A DNA stretch of 64,000 nucleotides from the NCBI RefSeq assembly GCF_041821065.1, contig NZ_JBGUAX010000003.1:62001-126000 (forward strand). The letters run 5' to 3'. The stretch comes from Egicoccus sp. AB-alg2. GTDB lineage: Bacteria; Actinomycetota; Nitriliruptoria; Nitriliruptorales; Nitriliruptoraceae. Positions 1,966-57,148 of the stretch are shown here, piece after piece. Below the pieces are notes generated by a model that searched no databases, was not told the DNA's origin, and saw only the letters and a program-made list of their open reading frames with translations. Position 1 is the first letter of the stretch; each line of letters starts with the position of its first letter. Position numbers and translations under genes: made by a program.

Positions 1966-2853
1966 GTGACGCCTCCCATCCCTCCGGACGACGCGCTCGC
2001 CGCGCTCCTGCCGCCGGACGTCGACCTCGATCCGGCCGCGCCCGTCGGGCTACGGCACGAGGCGGCGCTGCCCGTCTGGCACGGGCTGGTCTGGTCGCGG
2101 CTCGGCCGCGGGGATCTCGCCTGGGAGCAGTGGGGCCGGGTCCACCTGCCCGAGTTGCAGCCCTGGATCGCGGCCGAACGCGGCCGGGTCCTGCGCGAGC
2201 TGGGGTTGCACGCGGCCGCCGAGGCCGTGGAGTGGCCGGCGTTGCTGCAGGCCGAGGACGCCGTCGACGCGGCCATGCTGCGTGTGTCCCTGGCCGCCGA
2301 CGCGGTCGGCCACGGTGACCTCGCTGGCGCCCGGCGTCGCCTGGCCGCCGCCGAGCAGGCCGTGGGTGCGCTGGCCGCCGACGGGCGTGACGGTCACGAC
2401 GGACCGCGGGCCGCACGGCAGCGGCTGCGCCTGGCCTGGGTCCGCGTCGAGGTCGCCGCGCTGGGCGGCGACCCGCTGCCGACCGGCGGCCTGCCGGTCT
2501 GGGACGAGCGAACGGGCGGTCCCGTGCAGCCGGCCGACGCGCGTCACGGCAGCCGCTTCCACGCCGCCAAGGGCCTGTTGTTCGGCGGCGTCGCTCGCGG
2601 GGACGCACGCCTCCTCGAGGCGGCGGCCGCGCTCGCGCCGCCCGTGATCGCGTGGGCCGTCCAGCTGGCCCGGGCGGACCTCGGCGGCGACCCGGACGCC
2701 GAGGCAGCCGCGCGCGAGGCGTGGCGACGGATCGTGCCGCCGCCCGCCGTCGCGGCCGAGGTCGCGGCGACGGCGATCGCACACCGGCTCGGGCGGCCGG
2801 AGGCCGCCGCGACGCTCGACCACGACGTCAGCGGAACGTCCAGAGGCTGTTGA
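1966..2853 (+). CDS. Hypothetical helical protein
   Basis: A 295-residue, alanine-rich soluble protein with no signal peptide or membrane segment. The middle (about 60-150) reads as repeated amphipathic helices such as LGLHAAAEAVEWPALLQAE and GDLAGARRRLAAAEQAV, resembling a TPR-like or alpha-solenoid fold. I do not recognise a family. The start GTG sits right behind a -10-like TACGCT, suggesting a leaderless mRNA. The last 26 bases overlap the 3' end of the convergent GtrA gene, so the two transcripts are complementary at their ends. Confidence 0.7.
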   Translation: MTPPIPPDDALAALLPPDVDLDPAAPVGLRHEAALPVWHGLVWSRLGRGDLAWEQWGRVHLPELQPWIAAERGRVLRELGLHAAAEAVEWPALLQAEDAVDAAMLRVSLAADAVGHGDLAGARRRLAAAEQAVGALAADGRDGHDGPRAARQRLRLAWVRVEVAALGGDPLPTGGLPVWDERTGGPVQPADARHGSRFHAAKGLLFGGVARGDARLLEAAAALAPPVIAWAVQLARADLGGDPDAEAAAREAWRRIVPPPAVAAEVAATAIAHRLGRPEAAATLDHDVSGTSRGC

Positions 2854-2863
2854 GCAGGTAGTT
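2828..2863 (-). repeat. Inverted repeat arm, 3' end of second GtrA gene
   Basis: Partner of the arm at 1878-1913 (34 of 36 identical in opposite orientation). It contains the stop codon of the convergent hypothetical gene as well as the stop of the GtrA gene. Confidence 0.8.
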
Positions 2864-3241
2864 GTTGAGCGGCACCAACGCGAACGCGGCCGGTTGCACC
2901 CAGGCGTAGTGCAGCTCGAGCACCCCGGTGCCCACGAACAGGACGAGCGTGTTGAGCAGCAGACCGAGCCCCACCACGGTCAGGAACCGCGGCAGCGTGT
3001 GACCGTGCGCGTGGCCGGTCGCGAACACGAACCGTCGCTGCAGCAGGTAGGACACCACCAGCCCGCCCAGGAATCCGACCGCGGACGCCGTCACCGGTTG
3101 CCGCCCCGCCACCTCGACGAGCAGCGCGAGCAGGCCGAAGTGGGTGGCGGCCGCCGTCCCGCCCGCGAGCCCGTAGCGCACGAGCCGGCGCAGGTCGCGC
3201 AGACCCGTGGGCCGTGCGGCGCGGAGCTGGGCGCTGGACAT
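2828..3241 (-). CDS. GtrA-family membrane protein (second copy)
   Basis: A 137-residue paralogue of the protein at 1506-1913. It has the same RRLVRYGLAGGTAAATHFG opening, four membrane segments and NYLLNSLWTFR ending. A GAGGTG ribosome-binding site lies just upstream of the ATG at 3241. No GtrB-like transferase is next to it, so it may serve another polyprenyl-phosphate sugar transferase of this region. The 3' end overlaps the convergent gene by 26 bases. Confidence 0.9.
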   Translation of the reverse strand: MSSAQLRAARPTGLRDLRRLVRYGLAGGTAAATHFGLLALLVEVAGRQPVTASAVGFLGGLVVSYLLQRRFVFATGHAHGHTLPRFLTVVGLGLLLNTLVLFVGTGVLELHYAWVQPAAFALVPLNNYLLNSLWTFR

Positions 3242-5671: not shown

Positions 5672-7381
5672 ATGACCAGCCGTGCGACCCTCGTTCCCGA
5701 CCGCCGTAGGTCGATGCCCCTGTGGCTCATGGAGGGCCTCGACATCCTGGAACGCCGGGGCGGCAGCGTCCGCCTCACCGTGCTGGTGGTGTGCCTCCTC
5801 GGCATCCTCGCCGCCTGGCTGTTCCCCGGTCTGGTGCCGCCCACCCCGATCGTCGGCGCCGCGGTGGCGCTGGCCGCGCTGCTGCTGGGCCTCGCGGTGG
5901 GGATCGCGGTCGACACCGCCGACCTCACGCTCCGAGGTCCCCGGCACGTACGCGCGGCCGGTGGGGAACTGGTGGCGGTGGTGCCCACCGAACTGAACGT
6001 CGCCGCGGCCCGCCCCCTGGCCGCGGCCGTGCTGGACGCCCGCGAAGACGACGGCAAGCTGATCCTCGGGATCGCCGCCGTCGGGCGCGACGGCCGCCGT
6101 GCGTCGGCGCTGACGGACGCACTGGCGATCGCACTGGCCGACTTCGGCGTGAGCGTGCTGCGCCTGGACCTCGCGGCCGGCCGCGAGGACCGGCCCGGTC
6201 TCCACGAGGTCCTCCGCGGCGAGCACCGCCTGGTCCAGGTCGTCGACTTCGAGGCGGACGGCGTGCCGCTGGCCCGGCTCGGTCCGGGCCGCGACCTGGC
6301 GGGTGCGCTGGCCGCCCTGCCCGAGTTGCCGGCCCGGTTGCCGCGCGACCTCGACGTTCTGCTGGTCGCGCTGCCCACCGCCGCGTCGCGTGCCTCCGTG
6401 GCCGCGGCGACCGCGCTCGACCACGTCCTGCTGCTCGGCGAACGCAACGTCACCTCGCGGGTGGACCTGCTCGCCGGCCTCGACGCGCTCGAGAGCGTCG
6501 GTCTGGATGCCCAGGTGGTGCTGCTCGACGACCGGTTCCAGCCGCCGACGGCGACCGAGCCGCTGCCGATTCCCGACCCCGCCGAGCCCGTGATCCCGGA
6601 CCCCGACACCGAACCGGTCCACCCCGATCCCGAGCGCCCACTCGAGCCCGAGCCGCGGCCCGTCGTGCCGGAGCCCGAGCCGCCGCTGCCGGTGCCGCAA
6701 CCCGAGGGTGCGACGCCGTCCGAGGACGCCGGACCGGACGTGGCGGGCCCACCGGCACGGCCGGAACCCGAGGCGACCGGGGAGCCCGCCGTGTCCCCCG
6801 AACCCGAGGCGATCCCGGTGTCGGCGGCCGAGCCAGTCTCGGACGCGTCCCCAGAACCGGAGACGGTCCCGGTGGCTGCGGCCGAGCCGGAGCCGGAGGG
6901 GGTCCCGACGCCCGCAGCGTCCCGGGTGTCCCCGGCGCAGCCGGCGCCCGAGCCCTTTCGCATGCCCGCGTCACAGCCGGAGCCCGAGACGGCGTCGCCG
7001 GAGCCCGACACGGCCCTGGGGCGCCGTCCGGCCGACGAACCGACCGCGGAGACCCCGGCGCGCCGGCCTCCCGCCGAGCTGCCACCCAGCGGGGTCACTC
7101 TGCTCGACGGGGCGGTCCCGGTGGACCATCCCATCCGCGACTTCCGCGACCCGGCCGTGACCATCCCCGCGCCCGAGCCGGTCGCCCCCGCGCCCGACCC
7201 GGATCCCGAACCCGCCCCGGAGCCCGAGCCGGCACCCACGCCCACCGAGGCACCGGACGTCACCACGCGTCTGCGGCCGGTCGCGCCTGCGGCGGACGAC
7301 GACGAGGACGACCCGCTTCGGACCACGGCGCAGCTGGCCGTGCTCATCGACGATCTCCAGGCCCGCGACGACGAGTCGTAA
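5672..7381 (+). CDS. Membrane protein with degenerate BY-kinase/MinD-like domain and PEP-rich tail
   Basis: 569 residues. Two membrane helices (about 34-52 and 58-80) are followed by a domain (about 95-290) that follows the order of bacterial tyrosine kinases of the CpsD/Wzc type. There is a nucleotide-loop position (IAAVGRDGRRASALTDALA, 134-151), a strand with aspartate (VSVLRLDLAAGR), a PGLHEVLRG segment like the PxLHxxF motif, and DVLLVALP in the Walker B position. The loop lacks the GK[ST] of a working Walker A, so ATP hydrolysis is doubtful. Residues about 290-569 are a low-complexity Pro/Glu/Ala tail full of PEP and EPE, probably disordered. A role in polysaccharide chain-length control or scaffolding is an inference from this resemblance and the neighbourhood. 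Confidence 0.7.
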   Translation: MTSRATLVPDRRRSMPLWLMEGLDILERRGGSVRLTVLVVCLLGILAAWLFPGLVPPTPIVGAAVALAALLLGLAVGIAVDTADLTLRGPRHVRAAGGELVAVVPTELNVAAARPLAAAVLDAREDDGKLILGIAAVGRDGRRASALTDALAIALADFGVSVLRLDLAAGREDRPGLHEVLRGEHRLVQVVDFEADGVPLARLGPGRDLAGALAALPELPARLPRDLDVLLVALPTAASRASVAAATALDHVLLLGERNVTSRVDLLAGLDALESVGLDAQVVLLDDRFQPPTATEPLPIPDPAEPVIPDPDTEPVHPDPERPLEPEPRPVVPEPEPPLPVPQPEGATPSEDAGPDVAGPPARPEPEATGEPAVSPEPEAIPVSAAEPVSDASPEPETVPVAAAEPEPEGVPTPAASRVSPAQPAPEPFRMPASQPEPETASPEPDTALGRRPADEPTAETPARRPPAELPPSGVTLLDGAVPVDHPIRDFRDPAVTIPAPEPVAPAPDPDPEPAPEPEPAPTPTEAPDVTTRLRPVAPAADDDEDDPLRTTAQLAVLIDDLQARDDES

Positions 7382-7418: not shown

Positions 7419-7982
7419 GTGTCCCGACTGCGCCGTCGTCGGATCGTTCCCGCCCTCGTCGCCGCGCTCGCCTTCGTGGTGGTCGGTTGCGGCGGTGAGG
7501 ACCTGCAACCGTCGTCGGTGGAGTGGCGCAACGTGAGCCTGGACGTGCCCGACGGCTGGTACGTCTACGAACGCGCGGACACGCACCTGTCGATGGCCAA
7601 CGCGAACCTGCGGCCCGGCGAGGACGAGGAGTTCGTCGCCCCGGAGGAGGGCGTCGTGTCCATGGCCTTCACCTATGACCCGGGTCAGAGCCCCGACGAC
7701 TGGCGACGGTTCGTCGAGGAGCAGGATGCGACGCTGGAGTCGGACACCCGTGTGACGCTCGACGACGAGGTGCCCGCGACCCAGATCGTGTTCAGCTACG
7801 TGACCAACGGCGTGCCGACGCGCGAGATGGTGACGCTGATCCCCTCGCGCGCCATCGTGGTGCTCAGTCAGCCGGTGCCTGGCCCGGGCGACGACGACGC
7901 GCCCGAGGTCTTCCTCGACAACGTCGACACGTTCCGCTCCGTGCTCGAATCGGCCGAGTTCGGCCAGCCGCAGCTGGACTGA
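7419..7982 (+). CDS. Putative lipoprotein
   Basis: 187 residues with a basic N-terminus (MSRLRRRRIVPAL), a hydrophobic core and a lipobox-like VVGC with the candidate lipidated cysteine near residue 24. The mature part (VEWRNVSLDVPDGWYVYE...) resembles the small PsbP/LpqN-like lipoproteins of Actinomycetota, an impression rather than a family assignment. The GTG at 7419 is preceded by CTGGAG at 7408-7413. It follows the PEP-tail protein by 37 bases and may be co-transcribed with it. Function unknown. Confidence 0.75.
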   Translation: MSRLRRRRIVPALVAALAFVVVGCGGEDLQPSSVEWRNVSLDVPDGWYVYERADTHLSMANANLRPGEDEEFVAPEEGVVSMAFTYDPGQSPDDWRRFVEEQDATLESDTRVTLDDEVPATQIVFSYVTNGVPTREMVTLIPSRAIVVLSQPVPGPGDDDAPEVFLDNVDTFRSVLESAEFGQPQLD

Positions 7983-8345
7983 TCGCGCCCGAGTTCCCCG
8001 GTGGGCTGCAGGATGCGTTCCCCGTCGTGGGGTGTGCTCGCCGTGCGCTTCGACGGCGCGATTCTGGCGCGCCGCGGTCGGCCAACCACGAGCCGCTCCG
8101 TGTGTGCGCAGGACGCGCAGTCAATTCTGGGCGTTTTCGGCGGTTTTCGGCGGATTTGCCGGTGAAGCCGGCCCTTCGGAACCCCTGATGTCTGGCCACC
8201 GTTCTTGAGGCCACGGCCAGAGGTACAGGCCGGCCGGGACGTGCCGATCACCAGGGGAGGGTCGTGCAGCGTCGCGGTTTCTTCCCGTCGCCGATCAGCA
8301 CCCCGCCGGAAGCACCCGAACCGCCGGCTCCTGGGGCCGGCACGT
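7983..8345 (+). other. Long leader region before the amidase gene
   Basis: About 370 bases separate the lipoprotein stop from the preferred amidase start. A patch around 8119-8165 is clearly less GC-rich than its surroundings and has the direct repeat GTTTTCGGCG twice in a row. Short inverted repeats occur (GCCGG-TGAAG-CCGGC near 8158), but no complete riboswitch or terminator can be supported by eye. A weak alternative GTG start for the amidase lies at 8264. Confidence 0.4.
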
Positions 8346-8353
8346 GGAGGAAA
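8346..8353 (+). promoter_or_regulatory. Ribosome-binding site that decides the amidase start
   Basis: GGAGGAAA with six bases between GGAGG and the GTG at 8357. This beats the upstream GTG at 8264, whose GGAGGG is only two bases away and which would add a proline-rich 31-residue extension before the signal peptide. Confidence 0.6.
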
Positions 8354-8356
8354 CCC

Positions 8357-10033
8357 GTGCGATCTCTGTTCGTCCGTGCGCTCCTGGTCGCCCTCGTCCT
8401 GGCGATCGCGCCGCCGGCCTCGCAGCTCGAGTTCGTCTCGATCCCCGAGGTGGTGCGCGAGGACATCGCCGTCCGTGTCAGCGCCGATGCACTGGTACTC
8501 AGCAGCGGCGGCGCCGAGGAGCCCGAGGCCCACACCTCCGAGCCGATCGCCGCCCCGATCCCGTTCACCATGGTGGGCTTCCGCCTGCCCGACGGTGTCG
8601 ACACGGTGCGCGTCCGCACCGCGGGTGACGACGGCACGTGGAGCGAGTGGTACGACCTCGAGCGCGTGGAGCCCGACGAGGGCCCCGACCCCGACAGCGA
8701 GGAAGCCGCCAACGACCAGTCGCGCCAGTGGACCGAGCCGGCTTTCGTGGGTGAGTCGACCCGCTTCCAGGTCGAGGTGCCGGCCGACGAACTGCAGGCC
8801 GCCGGCGGTGACGTCGAGGTCGGCGCGTCGGTCATGGACACCGAGGGCCTCTCTGGCGGTCCGGTCAGTCGCAAGGCCGTCACGGTGGAAGGCCCGGTCG
8901 CCGAGGCGTCGAACGCGCCGCGGGTGATCACGCGTTCGCAGTGGGGCGCGCGTCCCTACAGCGGCTCACCGTCGGTCAGCAGCAACGTCGACCTCGTCGT
9001 CGTCCACCACACCGCCGGCAGCAACAACTACACGCAGGCGCAGGCGGCCGGCATCGTCCGTGGCATCCAGAACTGGCACATGGACAACAACCGGTGGTCG
9101 GACATCGGTTACAACATGCTGGTCGACCGGTTCGGCAACCTCTACGAGGGTCGGCAGGGGGGCGTGGAGCGCGGGGTCGTCGGCGCGCACGCCTCCGGGT
9201 ACAACACGGGCTCCTTCGGGATCTCCGTGATGGGCAACTACGTCAGCGTCGACGCACCGCAGGCCGCCTACGAGACGATGGTCAACGCCATCGCCTGGAA
9301 GGCGAAGATCCACGGCTTCAACCCGAACGGCAGCACGACCCGGACCCGCAACGGTGTCGCGGTGCGCACCGTCACGGGGCACCGCGACGTCGGCAACACC
9401 TCCTGCCCCGGGCTGATCAGCAACCGGATGGGCTGGATCCGCCAGCAGGCGGCGGCGCGCGCCCCGGGGATGCCGGGAGCGAGCTCGTCGTCGGCGCCGG
9501 CACCCAGTCGCTTCCCGGACGTCACGAGCGACAACGTCCACCGCGCCAACGTCCTGAAGGTGCACGACGCGAACGTGCTGCTCGGCTACCAGGACAACAC
9601 CTTCCAGCCCGACGCGGCGCTGAACCGCGGCGACATGGCACGCGCCGTCGCCGTCAGCATGGGGCTCCGGCCGGCCCAGAACTGGCAGGGGCGCTTCTCC
9701 GACCTCGACGACGTGCCGTGGCTCGCGCCGTGGATCGTGGCGCTGGCCGACCGCGGCGTCGTCGATGGGTTCCCCGACGGGACGTTCCGGCCGCGTCACA
9801 CGCTCAAGCGCGACCAGATGGCGACCTTCATCGCGAACGCGAAGGGCCTGGCGCCGCGTGCGCCGATGAACTTCACCGACGTACCGAAGAGCAACCCGCA
9901 CTACCACAACATCGGCGCGATCGAGCGTGCCGGCATCACCGAGGGGCGCACCCCGACGCGGTACGCGCCTCGCGGGACGATGCGCCGCGACCAGTCGGCG
10001 ACGTTGTTGGTGCGAGCCTTCGACATCAAATGA
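8357..10033 (+). CDS. PGRP/Amidase_2-type N-acetylmuramoyl-L-alanine amidase with three SLH modules
   Basis: 558 residues: signal peptide (about 1-22), an accessory beta-rich region (about 30-180), a PGRP/Amidase_2 domain (about 190-365) and three C-terminal SLH modules (about 385-558). The amidase domain has the zinc ligands expected for the family: the His of VVHHTAG (about 217), the His of TGHRDVG (about 342) and the Cys of TSCPG (about 350). ITRSQWGARP and NNRWSDIGYNMLVDRFGNLYEGR are typical of peptidoglycan recognition proteins. It should cut the bond between MurNAc and L-Ala of peptidoglycan outside the cell. The SLH modules (RDQMATFIA, RRDQSATLL) would tether it to a wall polymer. Here the modules lack the cysteine pair seen in other proteins of the set. 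Confidence 0.9.
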   Translation: MRSLFVRALLVALVLAIAPPASQLEFVSIPEVVREDIAVRVSADALVLSSGGAEEPEAHTSEPIAAPIPFTMVGFRLPDGVDTVRVRTAGDDGTWSEWYDLERVEPDEGPDPDSEEAANDQSRQWTEPAFVGESTRFQVEVPADELQAAGGDVEVGASVMDTEGLSGGPVSRKAVTVEGPVAEASNAPRVITRSQWGARPYSGSPSVSSNVDLVVVHHTAGSNNYTQAQAAGIVRGIQNWHMDNNRWSDIGYNMLVDRFGNLYEGRQGGVERGVVGAHASGYNTGSFGISVMGNYVSVDAPQAAYETMVNAIAWKAKIHGFNPNGSTTRTRNGVAVRTVTGHRDVGNTSCPGLISNRMGWIRQQAAARAPGMPGASSSSAPAPSRFPDVTSDNVHRANVLKVHDANVLLGYQDNTFQPDAALNRGDMARAVAVSMGLRPAQNWQGRFSDLDDVPWLAPWIVALADRGVVDGFPDGTFRPRHTLKRDQMATFIANAKGLAPRAPMNFTDVPKSNPHYHNIGAIERAGITEGRTPTRYAPRGTMRRDQSATLLVRAFDIK

Positions 10034-10227
10034 GCCGTCGTACGGATGTGGCGTGACACAGTCGCGGCCGACTTCGGCCGGTCGCCACTGCCGTCGTCGG
10101 GCTCGGCACCTCGCGGTGTCGGCTCGCCGCGTCCGTGGTGACCGGCCACCGTGCGTCGACCTCGCCGATCCGCCGGCCGCGTCGAAGTCTCGTCCCTGTT
10201 CGCCCGCGACGGGAGGGCCGCCTCGCC

Positions 10228-12534
10228 ATGCAACGTCTCGTAGCGCTTCTCACCGCCGTGCTCGTCGTGGCACCGATGGCCACGCCGGCGGCCCTCGCCG
10301 ACGATCCCGCAGCCAACGCTGAGGACGGCGCCCGCACCACGGACGCGACGTCGGTGGAACCCGCCGACGCCACGGACGAACCCGGGGCCCGCGGCAGCGA
10401 GGCTGCCGACGACGCGTCCACGACCGCGCCGAGGGACGACGAGGCGGGCGTTTCCGACTCCGCGGGTGGGGCGCACGGCGACGATGCCACCGAGGTGCCC
10501 CAGGAGACCGACGACGGTGCCGAGGGCACGGAGACCGAAGACGGCACCGGCAGCGAGGAAGCCTCGAGCGAGGCGGACGAGGCGCATGCGACGATCGCGG
10601 CGACCTCGGCAGGCTTCCCGATCCGTTCGTCGGTCCGCGCCGCAGGCGAACCGAATCCGGCGGTCCGGGTGGCCGGGTCCGGTTGGGGGCACGGGGTCGG
10701 CATGAGCCAGTACGGCTCCGCTGCCATGGCCCGCGCGGGCCACGGCGTGAACGACATCATCGCGCACTACTACCCGGGCCTCGAGCCGGGGAGCCGGGAG
10801 GAGTCGAGCACGCGCCCGATCCGGGTCGGTCTGCGCCAGAACCAGGCGAGCACCTGGGTTCGCGCGGTGACCGGACCGATCCGCTGGGACGCCTGCCCAC
10901 CCACGCTCGGCGGTCCCACCCCCGACGCCCAGTGTGAGCGGCTGCAGTTCCACGCCGACTCCGGGCAGACCGGCAACGTCTCCCAGCCGGCGGGTGCGAC
11001 CTGGCACGTGTGCCCGATCTCCAACGGCAACCAGCGGGTGCAGGACCGGGCGTGTGGGCAGTCCGGCTTCCGGACGATCGCCTCCACCGCGCAGCCGGTG
11101 CTGCGCGTCCAGCTCGGCAACGGCGCCGACGCTGCCGGGAACCGCGAGATCGTCGCCCCCGGCTACCGCCCGGAGACGCGTCTGCGACGGGGCGCGCACG
11201 ACATCATCCGGCCGGGAACTGGCCAGTCGCTGACGACCGTGCAGAACGTGCCCAGCGTCGAGCAGTACCTGTACGGCCTGGCGGAATCGATCCTGTCGTG
11301 GCCGGCGGCGGCCCTGCAGGCGCAGGCCGTCACGGGCCGGACGTACGCGCTGCGGACCCTCATCGATCGCCCCACCTGTCGCTGCGACATCCTGGCGTCG
11401 CCGTCACACCAGGCCTACGAGGGCTTTGGCCCCGAGTCCGTCGGCGCCTGGCGGCAGGCCGTCGACGAGACCCGCCACCGGGTGCTGATCAACCGTTACC
11501 AGTGGCAGGGACAGCAGCGCTCGGAACTGGCGGAGACCTACTACTCCTCGTCCCACGGCGGGCGCAGCGAGTCGCTGTTCGACTCCTGGGCCTACAACAT
11601 GCCCGACACGGAGCAGAACCGGGCCCGCTACGCCTACCTGGAGTCGGTCGACGACCCGTGGTCCGTGGACGAAGCGCCCTGTGCCAGCACGCCGAGGCAC
11701 GCCAGCTGCAACCCCAACCGCTCCTGGCAGGTCGACGTCCGCAACCGCGACGTCGCGAACCTGCTGTCCGCCGGCTGGCCGGGCGGTGCCATCACCACCG
11801 TCGAGCACCTGGAGATCCGCGACCGCACCACCGGCGGCACGCCGGCGACGCTTCGGGTCCGGGGGCGGACGAGCGCCGGGGAGACGGTCTCGTTCGACTA
11901 CGCGGGCACGTCGACGTACGTGGCGGGTGCGATGTTCCGCCGGCAGCTGCAGACCACGGGCGGTGCGTCGCTGCGCAGTTCGCAGATCCGCTCGCTGTCG
12001 TTCGGGCCGTTCGACGACGACGACGGCCACGTGCACGAGTACGCGATCGTGTGGGCGAACCACGCCGGCGTGGCGAACGGGCTGGACGCCACGCGCTTCG
12101 GCCCCCAGCAGTCGCTGCGGCGTGACCAGATGGCGACGCTGCTGGTCAACACGTTCGCGATCCCTCCCTCGAGCCAGGACCGGTTCGACGACGTCGACGA
12201 GAGCAACCCGCACTACGCCGCGATCAACGCGCTGGCCGCCGCCGGGGTGACCACCGGCGTGCGCAACGGTCGCGACTTCGACCCGCGCGGGTACGTGACC
12301 CGCGCCCAGATGGCGTCGTTCCTCGCGCGAGCAGCCGGTTGGGACACCAGTGACACCAGCACCGCCTTCACGGACGTGCCCCGCGGCGACGTGCACCGCG
12401 GCGCGATCACGGCGATCGAGCGGCGTGGGGTGACCGCCGGCTGCGACACGGCCGGAACGCGCTACTGCCCGACCCGTAGCGTCACCCGCGGGCAGATGGC
12501 CTCGTTCCTGCACCGCGTCGTTCGGGCCGGCTGA
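10228..12534 (+). CDS. Secreted SpoIID/LytB-domain protein with three SLH modules
   Basis: 768 residues. A signal peptide (about 1-24) is followed by an acidic Asp/Glu/Thr-rich linker (about 25-120), a SpoIID/LytB domain (about 140-560) and three SLH modules (about 580-768). The SpoIID part shows GSGWGHGVGMSQYGSAAMA, the catalytic-region VPSVEQYLYGLAES, AVTGRTYAL and the late ETYYSSSHGGRSES segment. SpoIID of Bacillus is a lytic transglycosylase acting on denuded glycan; LytB relatives modify amidases. No sporulation genes are near, so a vegetative wall-remodelling role is likely. The ATG at 10228 has GGGAGG 11 bases upstream and begins directly with the signal peptide. Confidence 0.9.
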   Translation: MQRLVALLTAVLVVAPMATPAALADDPAANAEDGARTTDATSVEPADATDEPGARGSEAADDASTTAPRDDEAGVSDSAGGAHGDDATEVPQETDDGAEGTETEDGTGSEEASSEADEAHATIAATSAGFPIRSSVRAAGEPNPAVRVAGSGWGHGVGMSQYGSAAMARAGHGVNDIIAHYYPGLEPGSREESSTRPIRVGLRQNQASTWVRAVTGPIRWDACPPTLGGPTPDAQCERLQFHADSGQTGNVSQPAGATWHVCPISNGNQRVQDRACGQSGFRTIASTAQPVLRVQLGNGADAAGNREIVAPGYRPETRLRRGAHDIIRPGTGQSLTTVQNVPSVEQYLYGLAESILSWPAAALQAQAVTGRTYALRTLIDRPTCRCDILASPSHQAYEGFGPESVGAWRQAVDETRHRVLINRYQWQGQQRSELAETYYSSSHGGRSESLFDSWAYNMPDTEQNRARYAYLESVDDPWSVDEAPCASTPRHASCNPNRSWQVDVRNRDVANLLSAGWPGGAITTVEHLEIRDRTTGGTPATLRVRGRTSAGETVSFDYAGTSTYVAGAMFRRQLQTTGGASLRSSQIRSLSFGPFDDDDGHVHEYAIVWANHAGVANGLDATRFGPQQSLRRDQMATLLVNTFAIPPSSQDRFDDVDESNPHYAAINALAAAGVTTGVRNGRDFDPRGYVTRAQMASFLARAAGWDTSDTSTAFTDVPRGDVHRGAITAIERRGVTAGCDTAGTRYCPTRSVTRGQMASFLHRVVRAG

Positions 12535-12954: not shown

Positions 12955-13926
12955 CTACGGTCGGGTGTCGCCGGGTGGCACGGGTGCGGTGGCCCCCCGC
13001 TGGAGCAGGTCGCGGGCCCCGAAGGCCAGCGCCAGGGGGAGGGCCACGGCCAGGCCGAGGATGCGCCCCAGCCCGGTGGCGGCGAACCCGGCCGCGGCCG
13101 GCACGTCCACGACCGGTGCGATCAGCGCGGTCAGCAGCTCGGCGAGCCCCAGCCCCGACGGGAACACGCCGGCCGACGCGGCCAGCGGCCCGGCCGCGCC
13201 GAGCACCAGCCCGTCCCGCACGGTGGCGGTCACGCCGAGGACCTGCAGGACGGCGAAGAGGCGCACGCCGTGCACCAGCGTGGTGGCCACCTCGACGCCG
13301 ATCAGAGCCAACAGCGGACGTAGCCCCTGCTCGGCGACGAGCGGGCGCGACAGCGCCAACGACACCCCGGCGCCCGCCAGCGCGGCGACGACCGCGCCGG
13401 CACCGAGCAGCGGTGCCTGCGGCAACGCGGCCAGGCCCGCCACCAGCAGACCCGCGGCGACCCACAGCATTGCGCCGACGACGTTGATCCCGGTGGCGCG
13501 GCGGGCCGACACGCCCAGGCCCGTGAGGGCGTGGATGCGCACCAGCGCCCCACCCGGCAGCGGCAACACGTTCGCGGCGGTGGCCAGCACGGTCGTACGG
13601 GTCGCCGAGCGCCACCCGAGCCGGCCGTCGCGGCTCACGCAGCGCGCCATCACCTGCAGCTCCAGCACGTTGACGAGCAGGTTCAGCGGTGTCAGCGCCA
13701 CCACGACCAGGGCCAGCCACGCCAGGTTGAGCTCGCCCGGGCGCAGGTCCAGCTCACGGAACGACACGACGATGCCGACGGCGAAGACGCTGACGGCGAC
13801 GAGCAGCAGCACACCCCGCACCCGCGGCGGCGGCTGGCGCAGGGCCCCCATCCGCGCCACGACCCGGGCCAGCCGCGACGTCCCGGACGGGCCGGGTTCA
13901 TCGGTGGATGACGAGGCGGACGGCAT
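12955..13926 (-). CDS. Flippase-like / LPG-synthase-type integral membrane protein
   Basis: 323 residues with about eight hydrophobic segments and little soluble sequence. It matches the lysylphosphatidylglycerol synthase transmembrane family in layout: a basic N-terminus, the conserved early NLAWLALVVVALTPLNLLVNVLELQ region, PLPGGALVRIHAL, and the late SAGVFPSGLGLAELLTAL segment. Members without a synthetase domain are often found in glycan gene clusters and are suspected flippases. The ATG at 13926 has a TAGCGT -10 box upstream and shares a divergent promoter region with the UDP-glucose dehydrogenase gene. Confidence 0.75.
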   Translation of the reverse strand: MPSASSSTDEPGPSGTSRLARVVARMGALRQPPPRVRGVLLLVAVSVFAVGIVVSFRELDLRPGELNLAWLALVVVALTPLNLLVNVLELQVMARCVSRDGRLGWRSATRTTVLATAANVLPLPGGALVRIHALTGLGVSARRATGINVVGAMLWVAAGLLVAGLAALPQAPLLGAGAVVAALAGAGVSLALSRPLVAEQGLRPLLALIGVEVATTLVHGVRLFAVLQVLGVTATVRDGLVLGAAGPLAASAGVFPSGLGLAELLTALIAPVVDVPAAAGFAATGLGRILGLAVALPLALAFGARDLLQRGATAPVPPGDTRP

Positions 13927-13973
13927 GGGCGGCCCTCGCGGTGCGACGGTCGTCGGGAGGCGGTTGCTGCGCG

Positions 13974-13979
13974 ACGCTA
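13974..13979 (-). promoter_or_regulatory. -10 box TAGCGT for the flippase-like gene
   Basis: TAGCGT on the minus strand, 47 bases upstream of the ATG at 13926, in the 146-base divergent intergenic region. Confidence 0.35.
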
Positions 13980-14011
13980 TCGGTCCGCCCGGCGGCGACG
14001 ATGCCCGTCGT

Positions 14012-14017
14012 TACACT
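14012..14017 (+). promoter_or_regulatory. -10 box TACACT for the UDP-glucose dehydrogenase gene
   Basis: TACACT 55 bases upstream of the GTG at 14073; divergent from the TAGCGT box at 13974-13979. Confidence 0.35.
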
Positions 14018-14072
14018 CCGGTCGTCCGCCACCGCCCGGTGGAGGTCACGTCATGCGTCCGGGGGGTACCTG

Positions 14073-15401
14073 GTGGATCTTGCAGTCATCGGCGTGGGAC
14101 ACGTCGGCCTCGTGACGGCGGCGTGCCTCGCGGACCTCGGCCACCGGGTCGTCGGGCTCGACGACGACGCCGCCAAGATCGAGACCCTCCTCGCCGGCGG
14201 CGTGCCGTTCCACGAGCCGGACCTGCCGCAGCTGCTGGAGAAGGTGACCGCCTCCGGCGCGCTGCGCTTCAGCACGGAACTCGCCGACGCGATCGCGGAC
14301 GCCGAGGTGGTCTTCGTCTGCGTCGGCACCCCGCCGCTGCCTGGCGGCGGGCCCGACCTGCGTTTCGTCGAGCGCGTCGCGGTCGAGGTGGCCTCCAGCG
14401 TGGACCACGAACTCGTCCTCGTGGAGAAGTCCACCGTCCCGGCCAACACCGGCCAGCGCCTGACCCAGGTCATCCGCCGCGAGCAGGAGGCCCGCGGCAC
14501 CGACCTGACCAACGTGCACGTCGCCTCCAACCCGGAGTTCCTCCGCGAGGGCGTGGCCGTGCACGACACGCTCAACCCCGACCGGATCGTCTACGGCACC
14601 AGCTCCGACTTCGCCCGCGACGCCCTGCGCCGGGTCTACGCCCCGCTGGTCGAGCGCACCGGCGCGCCGGTCGTGGAGACCGACGTCAACACCGCCGAGC
14701 TCATCAAGCACGCGTCCAACGCCTTCCTCGCCACCCGCATCTCCTTCATCAACGCGGTCGCCAACGTCTGCGACCTCGTCGGCGCGGACGTCGAGGTGGT
14801 CGCGCAGGGCATGGGCATGGACGCGCGCATCGGGCCCGCGTTCCTGTCGGCCGGGCTCGGCTACGGCGGCTCGTGCTTCCCCAAGGACGTCGACGCGTTC
14901 CTGCACCTGGCCCGCAACGTCGGCTACGACTTCCGGCTCCTGGAGGAGGTCGGCCGGATCAACGCCGGTCAGCGCGACGTCGTGCTGCGCAAGTTGCGCG
15001 ACGAGTTGTGGCACCTGTCCGGCAAGACGATCACGATCCTCGGCGCCGCCTTCAAGCCCGGTACCGACGACCTGCGCGAGTCGCCCGGACTGCACCTGGT
15101 CCGCACACTGATGGACGAGGGCGCCACGGTGCGCGTCTACGACCCCGTCGCGATCCCCGGCGTGCAGGCCCAACTGCCCGACGTCGCGACCTTCACCGAC
15201 CCCATCGAGGCCGTGACTGGGGCGCATGCGGCAGTCGTGGCCACCGACTGGCCGGAGATCGTCAAGCTGGACCTCGCCGAAGTCGTGGCCGCACTCGACT
15301 ACCCCATCCTCGTCGACGGCCGCAACTGCCTCGACGCGGCTGCTGCGGCGGCCGCCGGGCTGCGCTACCACGGCATCGGCCGTGGCCACCTGCGCACCTA
15401 G
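14073..15401 (+). CDS. UDP-glucose 6-dehydrogenase family protein
   Basis: 442 residues. It has an N-terminal NAD-binding domain (VIGVGHVG, 5-12), a central domain with the catalytic cysteine in GYGGSCFPKD (C268), and a C-terminal UDP-binding domain with GAAFKPGTDDLRESP. GTPP at 85-88, ASNPEFLREG and NAFLATRISFINAVAN are standard for the family. It oxidises UDP-glucose (or a close relative) to the uronic acid with two NAD+, supplying UDP-glucuronate for polysaccharide. The GTG start at 14073 gives the usual N-terminus directly before the Rossmann motif. A DPM1-like transferase follows after 14 bases. Confidence 0.93.
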   Translation: MDLAVIGVGHVGLVTAACLADLGHRVVGLDDDAAKIETLLAGGVPFHEPDLPQLLEKVTASGALRFSTELADAIADAEVVFVCVGTPPLPGGGPDLRFVERVAVEVASSVDHELVLVEKSTVPANTGQRLTQVIRREQEARGTDLTNVHVASNPEFLREGVAVHDTLNPDRIVYGTSSDFARDALRRVYAPLVERTGAPVVETDVNTAELIKHASNAFLATRISFINAVANVCDLVGADVEVVAQGMGMDARIGPAFLSAGLGYGGSCFPKDVDAFLHLARNVGYDFRLLEEVGRINAGQRDVVLRKLRDELWHLSGKTITILGAAFKPGTDDLRESPGLHLVRTLMDEGATVRVYDPVAIPGVQAQLPDVATFTDPIEAVTGAHAAVVATDWPEIVKLDLAEVVAALDYPILVDGRNCLDAAAAAAAGLRYHGIGRGHLRT

Positions 15402-26901: not shown

Positions 26902-27837
26902 GTGACCGCTGCCGTCGCCGACCGGCACCTGCCCGGTGCCCCGATGACGCACCTGCGTCAGCTCGAGGCCGAGTCGATCCACATCATGCGCGAGGTGGTC
27001 GCCCAGTGCGAGCGGCCCGTGATGCTCTACAGCATCGGCAAGGACTCGTCGGTGATGCTGCACCTGGCGAGGAAGGCGTTCCACCCGGGGCGGCTGCCCT
27101 TCCCGCTGCTGCACGTGGACACCACCTGGAAGTTCCGCGACATGATCGCCTTCCGGGACCGGACGGCCCGGGAGCTCGGCGTCGAGCTGATCGTCCACAC
27201 CAACCAGGAGGGCGTGGCCCAGGGCATCAACCCGTTCGACCACGGGTCCAGGAACTACACCGACATCATGAAGACCCAGGCGCTCAAGCAGGCCCTGACC
27301 ACCGGACGCTTCGACGGCATCTTCGGCGGCGCCCGCCGTGACGAGGAGAAGTCGCGGGCCAAGGAGCGGGTGTTCTCCTTCCGCGACCGGCACCACCGGT
27401 GGGACCCGAAGAACCAGCGTCCGGAGCTGTGGAACCTCTACAACGGCCGCGTGAACCCGGGCGAGTCGATCCGCGTCTTCCCGCTGTCGAACTGGACCGA
27501 GCTCGACATCTGGCAGTACATCTACCTGGAGAACATCCCGATCGTGCCGCTGTACTACTCGGCGCCGCGGCCGGTCGTGGAGCGCGACGGCGTGGTCATC
27601 ATGGTCGACGACGACCGCTTCCGGTTCGAGCCGGGGGAGGAGCCGGAGGAGCGCTGGATCCGGTTCCGCACGCTGGGCTGCTACCCGTTGTCCGGCGCCG
27701 TGGAGTCCCGGGCGACCACGCTGCCCGACATCATCCAGGAGATGCTGCTGGCGACGCGCTCGGAGCGTGAAGGCCGCGTGATCGACTACGACCAGGCCGG
27801 CTCCATGGAGGAGAAGAAGCGCGAGGGGTACTTCTGA
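26902..27837 (+). CDS. cysD: Sulfate adenylyltransferase subunit 2
   Basis: 311 residues of the PAPS-reductase-like CysD family. The PP-loop [14 protein letters not shown] (about 43-56), [16 protein letters not shown] and [22 protein letters not shown] are diagnostic, and the C-terminus ends [11 protein letters not shown] as in other CysD proteins. With CysN it makes adenylyl sulfate (APS) from ATP and sulfate, driven by GTP hydrolysis. The GTG at 26902 is preceded by TGGAG. The stop overlaps the ATG of cysNC (ATGA), so the two subunits are translationally coupled. Confidence 0.97.
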
Positions 27838-29759
27838 TGGCACACCAGTCCGATCTCATCGCGACCGACATCGAGGCCTACCTCGCCGAGCACGAGCGCA
27901 AGGACCTGCTGCGGCTGCTGACCTGCGGCAGCGTGGACGACGGCAAGTCGACGCTGATCGGCCGGTTGCTGCACGACTCCAACATGATCTACCAGGACCA
28001 GCTCGCCGCGTTGGAGTCCGACTCGCTGACGTCGGGCACCACCGGTGACCAGGTCGACCTCGCCCTGTTGATGGACGGCCTGAAGGCCGAGCGCGAGCAG
28101 GGCATCACCATCGACGTCGCCTACCGCTACTTCTCCACCGCCCGCCGCAAGTTCATCATCGCCGACACGCCCGGCCACGTGCAGTACACCCGCAACATGG
28201 TGACCGGCGCGTCGACCGCCCAGCTCGCCATCATCCTCGTCGACGCCCGCCATGGCGTGCTCGACCAGACCCGCCGGCACAGCTACATCGCCGCGCTGCT
28301 GGGCATCAGCCACGTCGTCGTCGCGGTCAACAAGATGGACCTCGTCGACTACGACCAGCAGCGCTTCGAGGAGATCAAGGCGGACTACCAGGCGTTCGCG
28401 ACCCAGCTCCGGCTGGCCGATCCCTACTTCCTGCCCATGTCGGCACTGAAGGGCGACAACGTCGTCAAGCCCTCCGAGGCGATGGCCTGGTTCGACGGCG
28501 TGCCGCTGATGGAGCACCTGGAGACCGTCGACGTCGCGGCCGACGAGGACTACACGCGCCTGCGGCTGCCCGTCCAGCTGGTGCAGCGCCCCAACCTCGA
28601 CTTCCGTGGCTTCGCCGGCACGATCGCGTCGGGGACGCTGCGACCGGGCCAGGAGGTCCTCGCGCTGCCCTCGGGGATGCGTTCACGGGTCGACCGGATC
28701 GTCACCTTCGACGGCGACCTCGACGAAGCCGGGCCGGGCCAGGCCGTCACCGTCACGCTCACCGACGAGATCGACGTGTCCCGCGGCGACGTGCTCGTCG
28801 ACCCGGCCCACCCGCTCGACCGTGCCCACGACCTCGACGCCATGCTCGTGTGGATGGCCGAGGAGGAGGCGCTGCCGGGCCGCCAGTACGTGCTGCTCTC
28901 CATCAACGGCACCTCCAACGCGTCGCTGCGGACCATCCACCACCGGGTCGACGTCAATTCGATGGCCCGCGAGCCGGCCGACCGGCTGGGTCTGAACGAC
29001 GTCGCTCGCTGCACGCTGTCCGCCGACCGCGAGTTGCTGTTCGATCCCTACCAGACCAACCGGACCACCGGTTCGTTCATCCTCGTCGACCGGCTGACCA
29101 ACATCACCGTCGCTGCCGGCATGATCGAGTCGGCCGCCTCCGGCTGGGAGAAGCCGCCGCCCTCGGGCCTGGCCCGCCACCGCTCCGGCGTCAGCTCCGA
29201 CGAGCGGGCAGCGCGTTTGGGGCAGCGCCCGGTCACGGTGCTGCTCACCGGCATGACGGGTTCGGGCAAGTCCACGATCGCGGCGGCCCTGGAACGGCGG
29301 CTGTTCGACCGCGGCAAGTCGGTGCTGCGCCTGGACGGCGAGAACCTGCGGCTGGGCATCAGCCGCGACCTCGGTTTCACCAACGAGGACCGGTCGGAGA
29401 ACCTGCGGCGGGCCGCGGAGATCGCCGCGATCGCCAGCCGTCACGGGCTCATCACGCTGGTCGCCGTCCAGGCGCCGCAGGCGTCGGTGCGCCAGCGCGT
29501 CCGCGACCTGCTGGGCGCCGACCGGTTCGTCGAGGTGTTCCTCGACGCGCCCGAGCAGACGCGGCGCGCCCGCGACCCCAACGGCCTGTACGCCAAGGCC
29601 GATCGCGGCGAGGTCGCCCACGTCCCGGGCGTGACCAGCGGCTTCGACCACCCGGCCGACCCGGACGTGCACCTCGACACGTCCGAGCGGACCGTCGAGG
29701 ACTGCGTCGAGGCGATCGTCAGCGTGCTCACCGAGCGCGGGTTCCTCGACGTCCGGTGA
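27837..29759 (+). CDS. cysNC: Bifunctional sulfate adenylyltransferase subunit 1 / adenylylsulfate kinase (CysNC)
   Basis: 640 residues. The N-terminal CysN GTPase has GSVDDGKST (31-39), DTPGH (about 111-115) and NKMD (about 164-167), followed by EF-Tu-like beta domains. The C-terminal APS kinase (about 460-640) begins with the P-loop GMTGSGKST and has [29 protein letters not shown]. The fused enzyme produces PAPS, the donor for sulfotransferases and the substrate of PAPS reductase. It lies between cysD and a SLC13-type permease with overlaps at both junctions. No sulfite-reduction genes are in the window, so use of PAPS for polymer sulfation is possible. Confidence 0.97.
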
Positions 29760-55810: not shown

Positions 55811-57148
55811 GTGGACGCCGAGGCAGGACACACCGGCCGCGCCGGTCGGACGGGCCGCGCCGGTCGGGCGGGCCGCGCCGGTCGGGCGGGCCGCGCCGGT
55901 CGGACGGGCCGCGCCGGTCGGGCGGGCCATCCGCGCCGTCCCCGCCACGCAGGTCGGCGACGCCGGCCTGACCCGGCGGTCGCGGCCTACGTGCTCGCCG
56001 CGGTGCTGGGGCTCGGCCAGGCGCTTCTGACCTGGACCACCGGCGGCGTGCCCGGGACGTCGGTTGCGGCCGAGGACGCGGCGGTGTCCGCGAGCCGGAT
56101 CCTCGTGGCCACCGTGCCGTACGCGACCGCGCTGGCGGTGGTCGTCGCCCTGCGCCGTCACGATCGACGCCTGGCCAGGTATTCCCTCGACGTCTGGGCC
56201 ACCGGTCTGGCTCTCGCCGGCGTCGCGCTGGCGGCCTGGCTGCTGGTCCGCTTCGCCGTGGCGCTGCCCGGCGCCAGTGGCGCCCCCTACGGCTTCTACC
56301 GGCTGAAGCTGCAGATCACGAGCCCGCTCGGCGACCACAACACCGCCGCCGGCCTGCTGCTGCCGCCGCTGGTGGCGGCCGCGGTGCTGGCCGCCCGTAA
56401 CCGTCGCTGGCTGATGGGCGTCGCCGTGCTCGCGCTGGGCACGACCGCCACGCTCTCGCGCGGAGTCGCCGTCGTGCTGGCGGGCACGGTCCTGCTGGCC
56501 GCGGTCACGGCTTCTCGCCGTCGCGTCGCCGGGGTGCTGGTGGCGGCGTTCGTGGTGGTGGTCGTCGGCCTCACGGCGGCCAGCGTGGGCCTGGACACCG
56601 CCGCGCCGCCCGGCACCGCCGCACCGGGTCCCGCGAGTCAGGCCGGAGCGGGGCCGTTCGGTACGTCGGTGCTCGGTCGCGTCGACCTCGCAGTCCGCGG
56701 GGTCGAGGTGGGCCGCGACCACCCGGTCGTCGGGATCGGGCTCGGGCGCTTCGCCGAGGTGGCCGACGACCTGCCGCAGCCCAACGACCACGCCCACCAG
56801 GCGTTCGCGCACGCGTTCGCCGAGGGCGGCGTGCTGCTGCTGGCAGCCGCACTGGTCGTGGTGGCGACGCTGGCGTGGCGCGCCCTGACCTCGCCGAGCG
56901 GTCCGCGACGTGACCTGGTGCTGCTCGGTGGAGCCGGCCTCGTCGCGCACGCCCAGGTGGAGATCCTCGCCGGCCGCCTCGGCTACGAGGTGCTGCTGGC
57001 GCTGCTGGTCGGACTGGCGGGCGCAGCGGCGGGCGACGCGGGTGGCGCGGCGGAGCGCGGGCCAGCCGGGCCCGCGGTGGACCCGCGGGGGTCCGACCCG
57101 GCCGGGCCCGCGCTGGACGCGCCGGGGTCCGGCCCGGCCGGCGGATAG
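55811..57148 (+). CDS. O-antigen-ligase/polymerase-like membrane protein with repetitive N-terminus
   Basis: 445 residues. The N-terminus holds five GRAGR[TA] hexapeptides encoded by an 18-bp tandem repeat, then a basic stretch and about nine to ten membrane segments. The large outer loop contains TSVLGRVDLAVRGVEVGRDHPVVGIGLGRFAEV and PNDHAHQAFAHAFAEGG, the Wzy_C pattern (R...GxGxxxF and HxHN-like DHAHQ) of ligases and polymerases that join lipid-linked glycans. It may polymerise or attach the polysaccharide made by the upstream clusters. The tail is Pro/Gly/Ala-rich. The start follows guaB3 by 29 bases; if the GTG at 55811 is right, the repeat is translated. Confidence 0.78.
   Translation: MDAEAGHTGRAGRTGRAGRAGRAGRAGRAGRTGRAGRAGHPRRPRHAGRRRRPDPAVAAYVLAAVLGLGQALLTWTTGGVPGTSVAAEDAAVSASRILVATVPYATALAVVVALRRHDRRLARYSLDVWATGLALAGVALAAWLLVRFAVALPGASGAPYGFYRLKLQITSPLGDHNTAAGLLLPPLVAAAVLAARNRRWLMGVAVLALGTTATLSRGVAVVLAGTVLLAAVTASRRRVAGVLVAAFVVVVVGLTAASVGLDTAAPPGTAAPGPASQAGAGPFGTSVLGRVDLAVRGVEVGRDHPVVGIGLGRFAEVADDLPQPNDHAHQAFAHAFAEGGVLLLAAALVVVATLAWRALTSPSGPRRDLVLLGGAGLVAHAQVEILAGRLGYEVLLALLVGLAGAAAGDAGGAAERGPAGPAVDPRGSDPAGPALDAPGSGPAGG
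55835..55924 (+). repeat. Coding tandem repeat, five 18-bp units
   Basis: Units GGCCGCGCCGGTCGG[AG]CG at 55835, 55853, 55871, 55889 and 55907 encode GRAGRT or GRAGRA. Being a multiple of three, copy-number changes would not disturb the frame. Confidence 0.9.

Follow-up and report, generated by a model that had tools for sequence, protein, structure and literature searches.

Wzc is a PCP-2a co-polymerase with a fused BY-kinase. It is described as alternating between an octameric state and phosphorylated monomers by means of its Tyr tail (PMC8285477). Known BY pseudokinases include EcpK and HfsB, for which the account in PMC12004946 gives a BY-kinase fold that has lost the Walker motifs and the C-terminal Tyr residues, and proposes a scaffold role. 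In the same account, EcpK stands alone and partners a separate PCP, EpsV; the support that it lends this co-polymerase is proposed to come from binding and not from phosphorylation. SMc01795 is named there as a single-chain PCP-2 pseudokinase joined to a transmembrane/periplasmic part (PMC12004946). The BY pseudokinases presented there either serve as scaffolds for a co-polymerase on another chain or are attached to a complete one (PMC12004946). An inactive homologue of the CapB1/PtkB type is described as occurring alongside an active BY-kinase (PMC3795738).

The protein analysed here is encoded in a stretch of 64,000 nucleotides from Egicoccus sp. AB-alg2, hereafter the window, and all of its features given below lie on the forward strand. 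It shares with Wzc the order of pre-transmembrane helix, TM1, TM2, juxtamembrane segment and kinase fold. Compared to Wzc, it lacks the Wzz periplasmic domain, the Walker A Lys, the second Walker A′ Asp, the Walker B Asp and the Tyr cluster, and it adds a long acidic Pro-rich tail. The losses from the kinase domain are those of the EcpK/HfsB type; the protein differs from EcpK in having its own membrane hairpin, a long tail and a pairing with a lipoprotein gene. As in SMc01795, the membrane part and the pseudokinase are on one chain, although here only 8 residues separate TM1 from TM2, a distinction that is drawn by description. The CapB1/PtkB type is alike in that an inactive homologue accompanies an active kinase in one genome, but its members are separate cytosolic proteins with a membrane partner, and this likeness too is judged by description. 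Among the papers listed by literature searches on inactive BY-kinases, degenerate Walker A loops, co-polymerase pseudokinases and Nitriliruptor kinases, we found no membrane-anchored BY pseudokinase lacking a Wzz domain.

Domain architecture and relationship to Wzc

The open reading frame (P0001; 5672–7381) encodes 569 residues from an ATG codon, and this start (MTSR) matches the orthologues G002 and G003 in the sequence alignment. An AlphaFold2 model was built for residues 1–289 only, from 20 aligned sequences, with a mean pLDDT of 84.8. The model begins with a helix at residues 17–28 (5720–5755), aligned by VIA-align with Wzc residues from 17 on, and continues with TM1 at residues 30–50 (5759–5821) and TM2 at residues 59–83 (5846–5920), the latter aligned by hhalign with TM2 and the juxtamembrane part of Wzc. 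These membrane helices are the hydrophobic helices of the model, with their insertion and inside/outside orientation taken from the Wzc match, and they agree with the two that an earlier note on this DNA had read from the sequence. Only 8 residues lie between the end of TM1 (residue 50) and the start of TM2 (residue 59), so the extracytoplasmic Wzz domain is missing. The juxtamembrane segment carries the peptide RGPRHV (residues 88–93; 5933–5950), a set of near-invariant alignment columns that serves as a family signature. The BY-kinase-like domain, delimited from the model, profile comparison, Foldseek and VIA-align, spans residues 84–289 (5921–6538), and the remaining 280 residues (290–569; 6539–7378) form a tail rich in Pro, Glu, Asp and Ala.

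When the model was compared with the PDB using Foldseek, the best matches were to full-length Wzc (E 8e-11, probability 1.00, TM 0.61 by query length), and the kinase domains of Wzc, BceF, Etk and CapAB were also among the best 50 matches listed. VIA-align was used to re-examine Foldseek's own candidates, and aligned 269 residues of the model (17–289) with Wzc (17–712) at Z 21.9 and an rmsd of 7.3. We would expect such a high rmsd for full-length Wzc if the angle between the domain and the membrane part of the model differs. Seven entries of isolated kinase domains gave Z 20.0–21.5 at 2.4–2.8 Å over about 200 residues, VpsO gave Z 18.0, and the best MinD gave Z 14.1. The BY-kinase fold was in this way found by both methods, and a predicted fold unrelated to P-loop kinases, which the earlier note had named as the case against its reading of a CpsD/Wzc-type domain, was not seen.

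Profile comparison agrees with the structural searches. The family profile matched that of 20 Wzc proteins of relatives with a probability of 95.5 (E 1.6e-8) over residues 43–279, as one colinear run through TM2, the juxtamembrane segment and the kinase; a control comparison with one unrelated family gave a probability of 0.2 (E 0.3). A search of PDB chains with hmmsearch gave BceF as the best match (E 5.7e-5), followed by FleN (0.012). Scans with Pfam and NCBIfam returned nothing usable for the window protein alone (Rhomboid, E 0.22; minD_arch, its sole NCBIfam match, E 0.021 and 14 bits against a cut-off of 202) or for 20 family members, among which pepcterm_TyrKin matched five (best E 0.0026) and the Wzz model of Pfam only one (E 0.17). 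MinD/ParA ATPases have a deviant Walker A containing GK[ST]. Membership of that group was considered, and was rejected on the lower fold scores and the absence of this motif. In short, TM1, TM2 and the kinase fold are on one chain as in PCP-2a proteins, with no Wzz domain between the helices, and on the evidence of the predicted model we place the protein in the Wzc (PCP-2a) lineage, as a BY pseudokinase. The description of the domain as BY-kinase/MinD-like holds for its first half; the likeness to MinD is weaker.

Lost catalytic residues in a maintained family

The sequence at the former Walker A position is GRDGRRASAL (residues 138–147; 6083–6112), as had been noted earlier, and the motif GK[TS] is found in none of the 29 family members, compared to all of 20 intact Wzc proteins of relatives, picked by length among 35 matches. 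The loss goes further than the Walker A loop to which it had been ascribed. With positions set by profile alignment to Wzc, the former Walker A′ reads VLRLDLA (residues 162–168; 6155–6175), with the first Asp kept (166) and the second replaced by Ala168, and the former Walker B reads LDVLLVALP (residues 227–235; 6350–6376), with Ala233 in place of Asp. Across the family, the first A′ Asp is present in 29/29, the second is absent in 29/29, and the Walker B Asp is likewise absent throughout, with Ala, Ser or Thr in its place. Orthologues with an intact loop, which the note had proposed to look for, were not seen among the 29: the nearest is the lone GDGK of G059, and G011 retains GDG. From their sequences, these two loops look like remnants of an intact GDGKTS.

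The C-terminal Tyr cluster is also missing, with 0–3 Tyr per tail across 29 tails, some of which end at contig ends, and no Tyr at all in the 569 residues of the window protein. With neither catalytic residues nor tyrosines, the octamer/monomer cycle of Wzc is unavailable to this protein alone. The combination of a BY-kinase fold with no Walker motifs and no Tyr-rich C-terminus is the one described for EcpK (PMC12004946), with one of the 29 members here retaining GDGK. The window protein and 19 of the 21 other matches (20 sequences) align over the non-tail part, with 27 invariant columns. Values of dN/dS (Nei-Gojobori) were 0.075–0.33 for the domain in 10 pairs, some of which share a genome and so are not all independent, and 0.30–0.49 for the tail in the six pairs having two complete tails; some dS values are near 1, and the values are compared between domain and tail only. 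The alignment and the domain dN/dS show that the window protein is no chance open reading frame. Judging from these substitution patterns, the domain is under purifying selection, as a maintained pseudokinase and not a decaying one, and together with the invariant columns this argues that it is maintained for something besides catalysis. An E..R..R pattern is associated with ring formation by BY-kinases. It occurs in none of the 29 pseudokinases but in only 4 of the 20 intact relatives, so the pattern is uninformative on oligomers.

Nitriliruptorales are an order of haloalkaliphilic habitat. When 66 genomes of the class were scanned with the profile, the domain turned up in 28 of the 36 Nitriliruptorales genomes and in none of the 30 others; within the order, it is present in 27/35 genomes of the family and in the single genome of a second family. 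Two of the positive genomes account for two more short matches (E 1.6e-4 and 8.7e-4), which are left out of the member count. The 28 positive genomes give 29 proteins, as one genome (G018) has two copies. Each of these copies is paired with a lipoprotein gene (L067 on C144 and L118 on C154), the second being less similar to the window protein (52 vs 61% identity). Scanning one genome per species (84,980 species) for three conserved peptides gave 21 loci, a search that relatives without any of the three peptides could escape; by record title, 16 of these are Nitriliruptoraceae, one is Nitriliruptorales, one is Salsipaludibacter albus and three are labelled Actinomycetota bacterium.

The tail, the lipoprotein gene and the neighbourhood

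The 280-residue tail contains 77 Pro, 35 Glu, 25 Asp and 40 Ala, with no Lys and no Tyr, and is presumably disordered, given this composition. Complete tails (n = 22) range from 130 to 458 residues. Near the C-terminus of the window protein is the conserved peptide LRTTAQLAVLIDDL (motif M3; residues 549–562; 7316–7357), whose consensus, LRTTAQLAxLxDDL, begins 20 to 63 residues before the tail end. The strict M3 pattern, which was written after the sequences were inspected, is found in 15 of 29 tails and 14 of the 22 complete ones, compared to a mean of 0.002 sites and a maximum of 1 in 500 composition-preserving shuffles. Eight complete tails do not fit the strict pattern: by eye, G004, G008, G017 and G025 have a divergent version, and no M3 is visible in G003, G015, G063 and G018b. 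Nor was M3 seen in G005, where the contig end truncates the tail. A second motif (D[VL][DE]V..GAA-like) occurs in 10/29 tails, with a shuffle mean of 0.008 sites. Motif M2 (T.[REMV][LIMV].P[VIA]), represented in the window protein by TTRLRPV (residues 531–537; 7262–7282), is weak, with 11 sites in 8/29 tails and a shuffle mean of 0.66 sites (maximum 5). The tail of G006 (L008) contains several near-identical ETTELRPV-like repeat copies, four of which fit the M2 pattern. M2 and M3 (Txx[LIM]) might conceivably be phospho-threonine/FHA docking sites. A search of the protein's own genome with the last 29 residues recovered, apart from the protein, a single match at chance level (E 1.24), and the open frames around that match hold nothing that can be linked to the tail peptide. 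That the tether changes fast while its terminal peptide is conserved suggests a putative docking site. The earlier description of a 280-residue PEP tail was right as to length, and the PEP repeats prove to be accompanied by conserved short motifs.

Downstream of the pseudokinase gene lies a partner gene (7419–7982, forward strand) for a lipoprotein of 187 residues, with Cys24 invariant in 10 sequences. Its model (pLDDT 87.3) resembles the EagT6/PsbP/DcrB/LpqN fold, with Foldseek E values from 2e-5 to 3e-3 and TM scores by query length of 0.35–0.48. LpqN of Mycobacterium (6e5d, E 3e-3, TM 0.39) has a similar fold and is also a lipoprotein, but is less alike in fold to the partner than EagT6, PsbP and DcrB, which have better scores. 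The partner has no convincing Pfam family; membership of Lpp-LpqN, for which one of 10 members gave a match (E 0.25), is unsupported.

The lipoprotein gene is found downstream, on the same contig and strand, in 22 of the 29 family members, and the gap to the start of the lipoprotein profile match is −18 to 463 bases, with an upper bound only for G064, where the frame is cut by the locus end. In six of the remaining seven (G005, G006, G009, G014, G020 and G021) the tail frames leave the contig end; in four of them, a different contig has a lipoprotein match close to its start. The seventh, G025, has the domain and a covered downstream region, and no lipoprotein match in its genome. Four genomes (G007, G023, G024 and G060) have the lipoprotein without a domain match, and just upstream an open frame containing an M3-like motif, picked by motif search; that of G007 remains open and tail-like over 669 residues, as far as the contig end, and contains no domain match. 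A lipoprotein profile scan gave matches in 29/36 genomes of the order and one weak match (E 4e-5) outside it. We see, then, a conserved gene pair and not the unrelated gene contexts that would have spoken against the earlier reading, and the conserved adjacency suggests a functional link, though not contact.

The lipoprotein gene is the nearest conserved neighbour, with the sugar genes farther away. Stretches from 14 relatives were compared with the proteins of the window, using genes called by a simple composition-based script; as contig ends cut many stretches and gene finding was simple, absences are weak evidence. Genes for an Amidase_2 protein with three SLH domains (8264–10033) and a SpoIID protein with SLH domains (10135–12534), both on the forward strand, follow the pair in the window, and homologues of both are close to the pair in 4 of the 14 relatives (G001, G002, G003 and G010). 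A chaperonin gene is near the pair in six (G003, G004, G014, G016, G017 and G025). A 295-residue protein encoded at 1966–2853, with no Pfam match (E up to 0.001), has homologues near the pseudokinase in G002, G010, G011, G013 and G018, and a weaker one in G004. The window also has glycosyltransferases, a UDP-GlcNAc epimerase and a sugar transferase, and an ABC ATPase that could be a candidate for polysaccharide export. Judged by its translated start, 27837–29759 may encode a CysN/NodQ-type sulfate-activation GTPase, which would fit a sulfated polysaccharide. Elsewhere in the window, two GtrA-like membrane proteins are encoded about 1 kb from each other on opposite strands (1506–1913 and 2828–3241), and 55811–57148 gives a predicted protein that begins with many GRAGRA-type repeats.

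Possible roles in envelope assembly

We infer, with moderate confidence, that this BY pseudokinase of the Wzc lineage serves envelope assembly as a membrane scaffold, without catalysis. The membrane hairpin would put the pseudokinase domain on the inner membrane face, where the domain and the conserved near-terminal tail peptide would hold cytosolic or membrane partners of envelope glycan or S-layer assembly, and the lipoprotein would act across that membrane, at its outer face. By analogy, such a role resembles the support of a co-polymerase that is proposed for EcpK in PMC12004946. A more specific version, which we put forward tentatively, is a two-sided adaptor: LRTTAQLAxLxDDL, near the end of a tether of between 130 and at least 669 residues, would capture a specific client from the cytosol at the site of envelope assembly, with the pseudokinase and the PsbP/LpqN-fold lipoprotein outside forming one unit.

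The earlier note had offered a non-catalytic chain-length regulator or a scaffold, and the scaffold-like build is what we find. Chain length could alternatively be regulated if the protein joined or modulated active Wzc/Wzz as a hetero-oligomer, negatively or positively, in the manner of inactive CapB1/PtkB-type partners, which we consider unlikely. The window's genome does have one intact Wzc, with GDGKTS and the Tyr cluster YYYSYYYRD (G000:C10:8920-11400; L021, L029), beside a gene on the opposite strand that is presumably a low-molecular-weight tyrosine phosphatase, but this Wzc is on a different contig (C10). A match to Wzz (PF02706) is found in 12 of the 28 pseudokinase genomes, but not in the other 16, six of which are more than 90% complete, although this model may overlook divergent Wzz; the negative genomes include G002 (98% complete) and G014, G056 and G058 (96–97%). 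Interference of inactive BY-kinases with active ones is proposed in PMC3795738, but the Wzz part needed for co-assembly outside the membrane is missing from the window protein. These sequence searches make control of chain length through a Wzz protein less likely.

Ugd is a known BY-kinase substrate, and in E. coli it is Wzc that phosphorylates it. The pseudokinase might modulate a Ugd by binding instead of phosphorylation, and so set the supply of UDP-glucuronate, an option that seems to us quite unlikely. A Ugd-like UDP-glucose/GDP-mannose dehydrogenase gene is present in the window (13908–15401, forward strand), homologues are near the pair in 5 of the 14 relatives (G004, G015, G018, G019 and G025), immediately following the lipoprotein gene in two of them, G015 and G019, and tyrosine phosphorylation of E. 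coli Ugd is the subject of PMC2516531. Against this, the stretches of 9/14 relatives, many on short contigs, have no Ugd match, and a lipoprotein partner across the membrane would be left unexplained.

It is distinctly improbable that the altered loop still binds nucleotide and that the protein is an unusual MinD/ParA-like ATPase switch instead of a dead enzyme. The remnant loops of G059 and G011, the first A′ Asp kept in every member and the minD_arch match would fit such a switch, but the absence of GK[TS], the Walker B Asp and the second A′ Asp from all 29 members argues against it, as does a fold that resembles BY-kinases more than MinD. The missing catalytic residues and the missing domain might suggest that the protein is a relic of Wzc, decaying or neutral, but the present data contradict this reading: there is purifying selection with 27 invariant columns in 20 sequences, retention in 28/36 genomes of the order and a conserved gene pair.

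The membrane scaffold reading offers a lead to the function of two protein families for which our scans gave no Pfam match above cut-off, in a little-studied actinobacterial order, and the gene pair with its one terminal peptide makes a clean system for asking what such scaffolds hold. If the two-sided adaptor is true, the Wzc scaffold would serve the assembly of the S-layer or wall glycan independently of both Wzz and phosphorylation. An order-wide version that is under selection and has no co-polymerase part would demonstrate that the kinase fold of Wzc is useful as a pure membrane scaffold.
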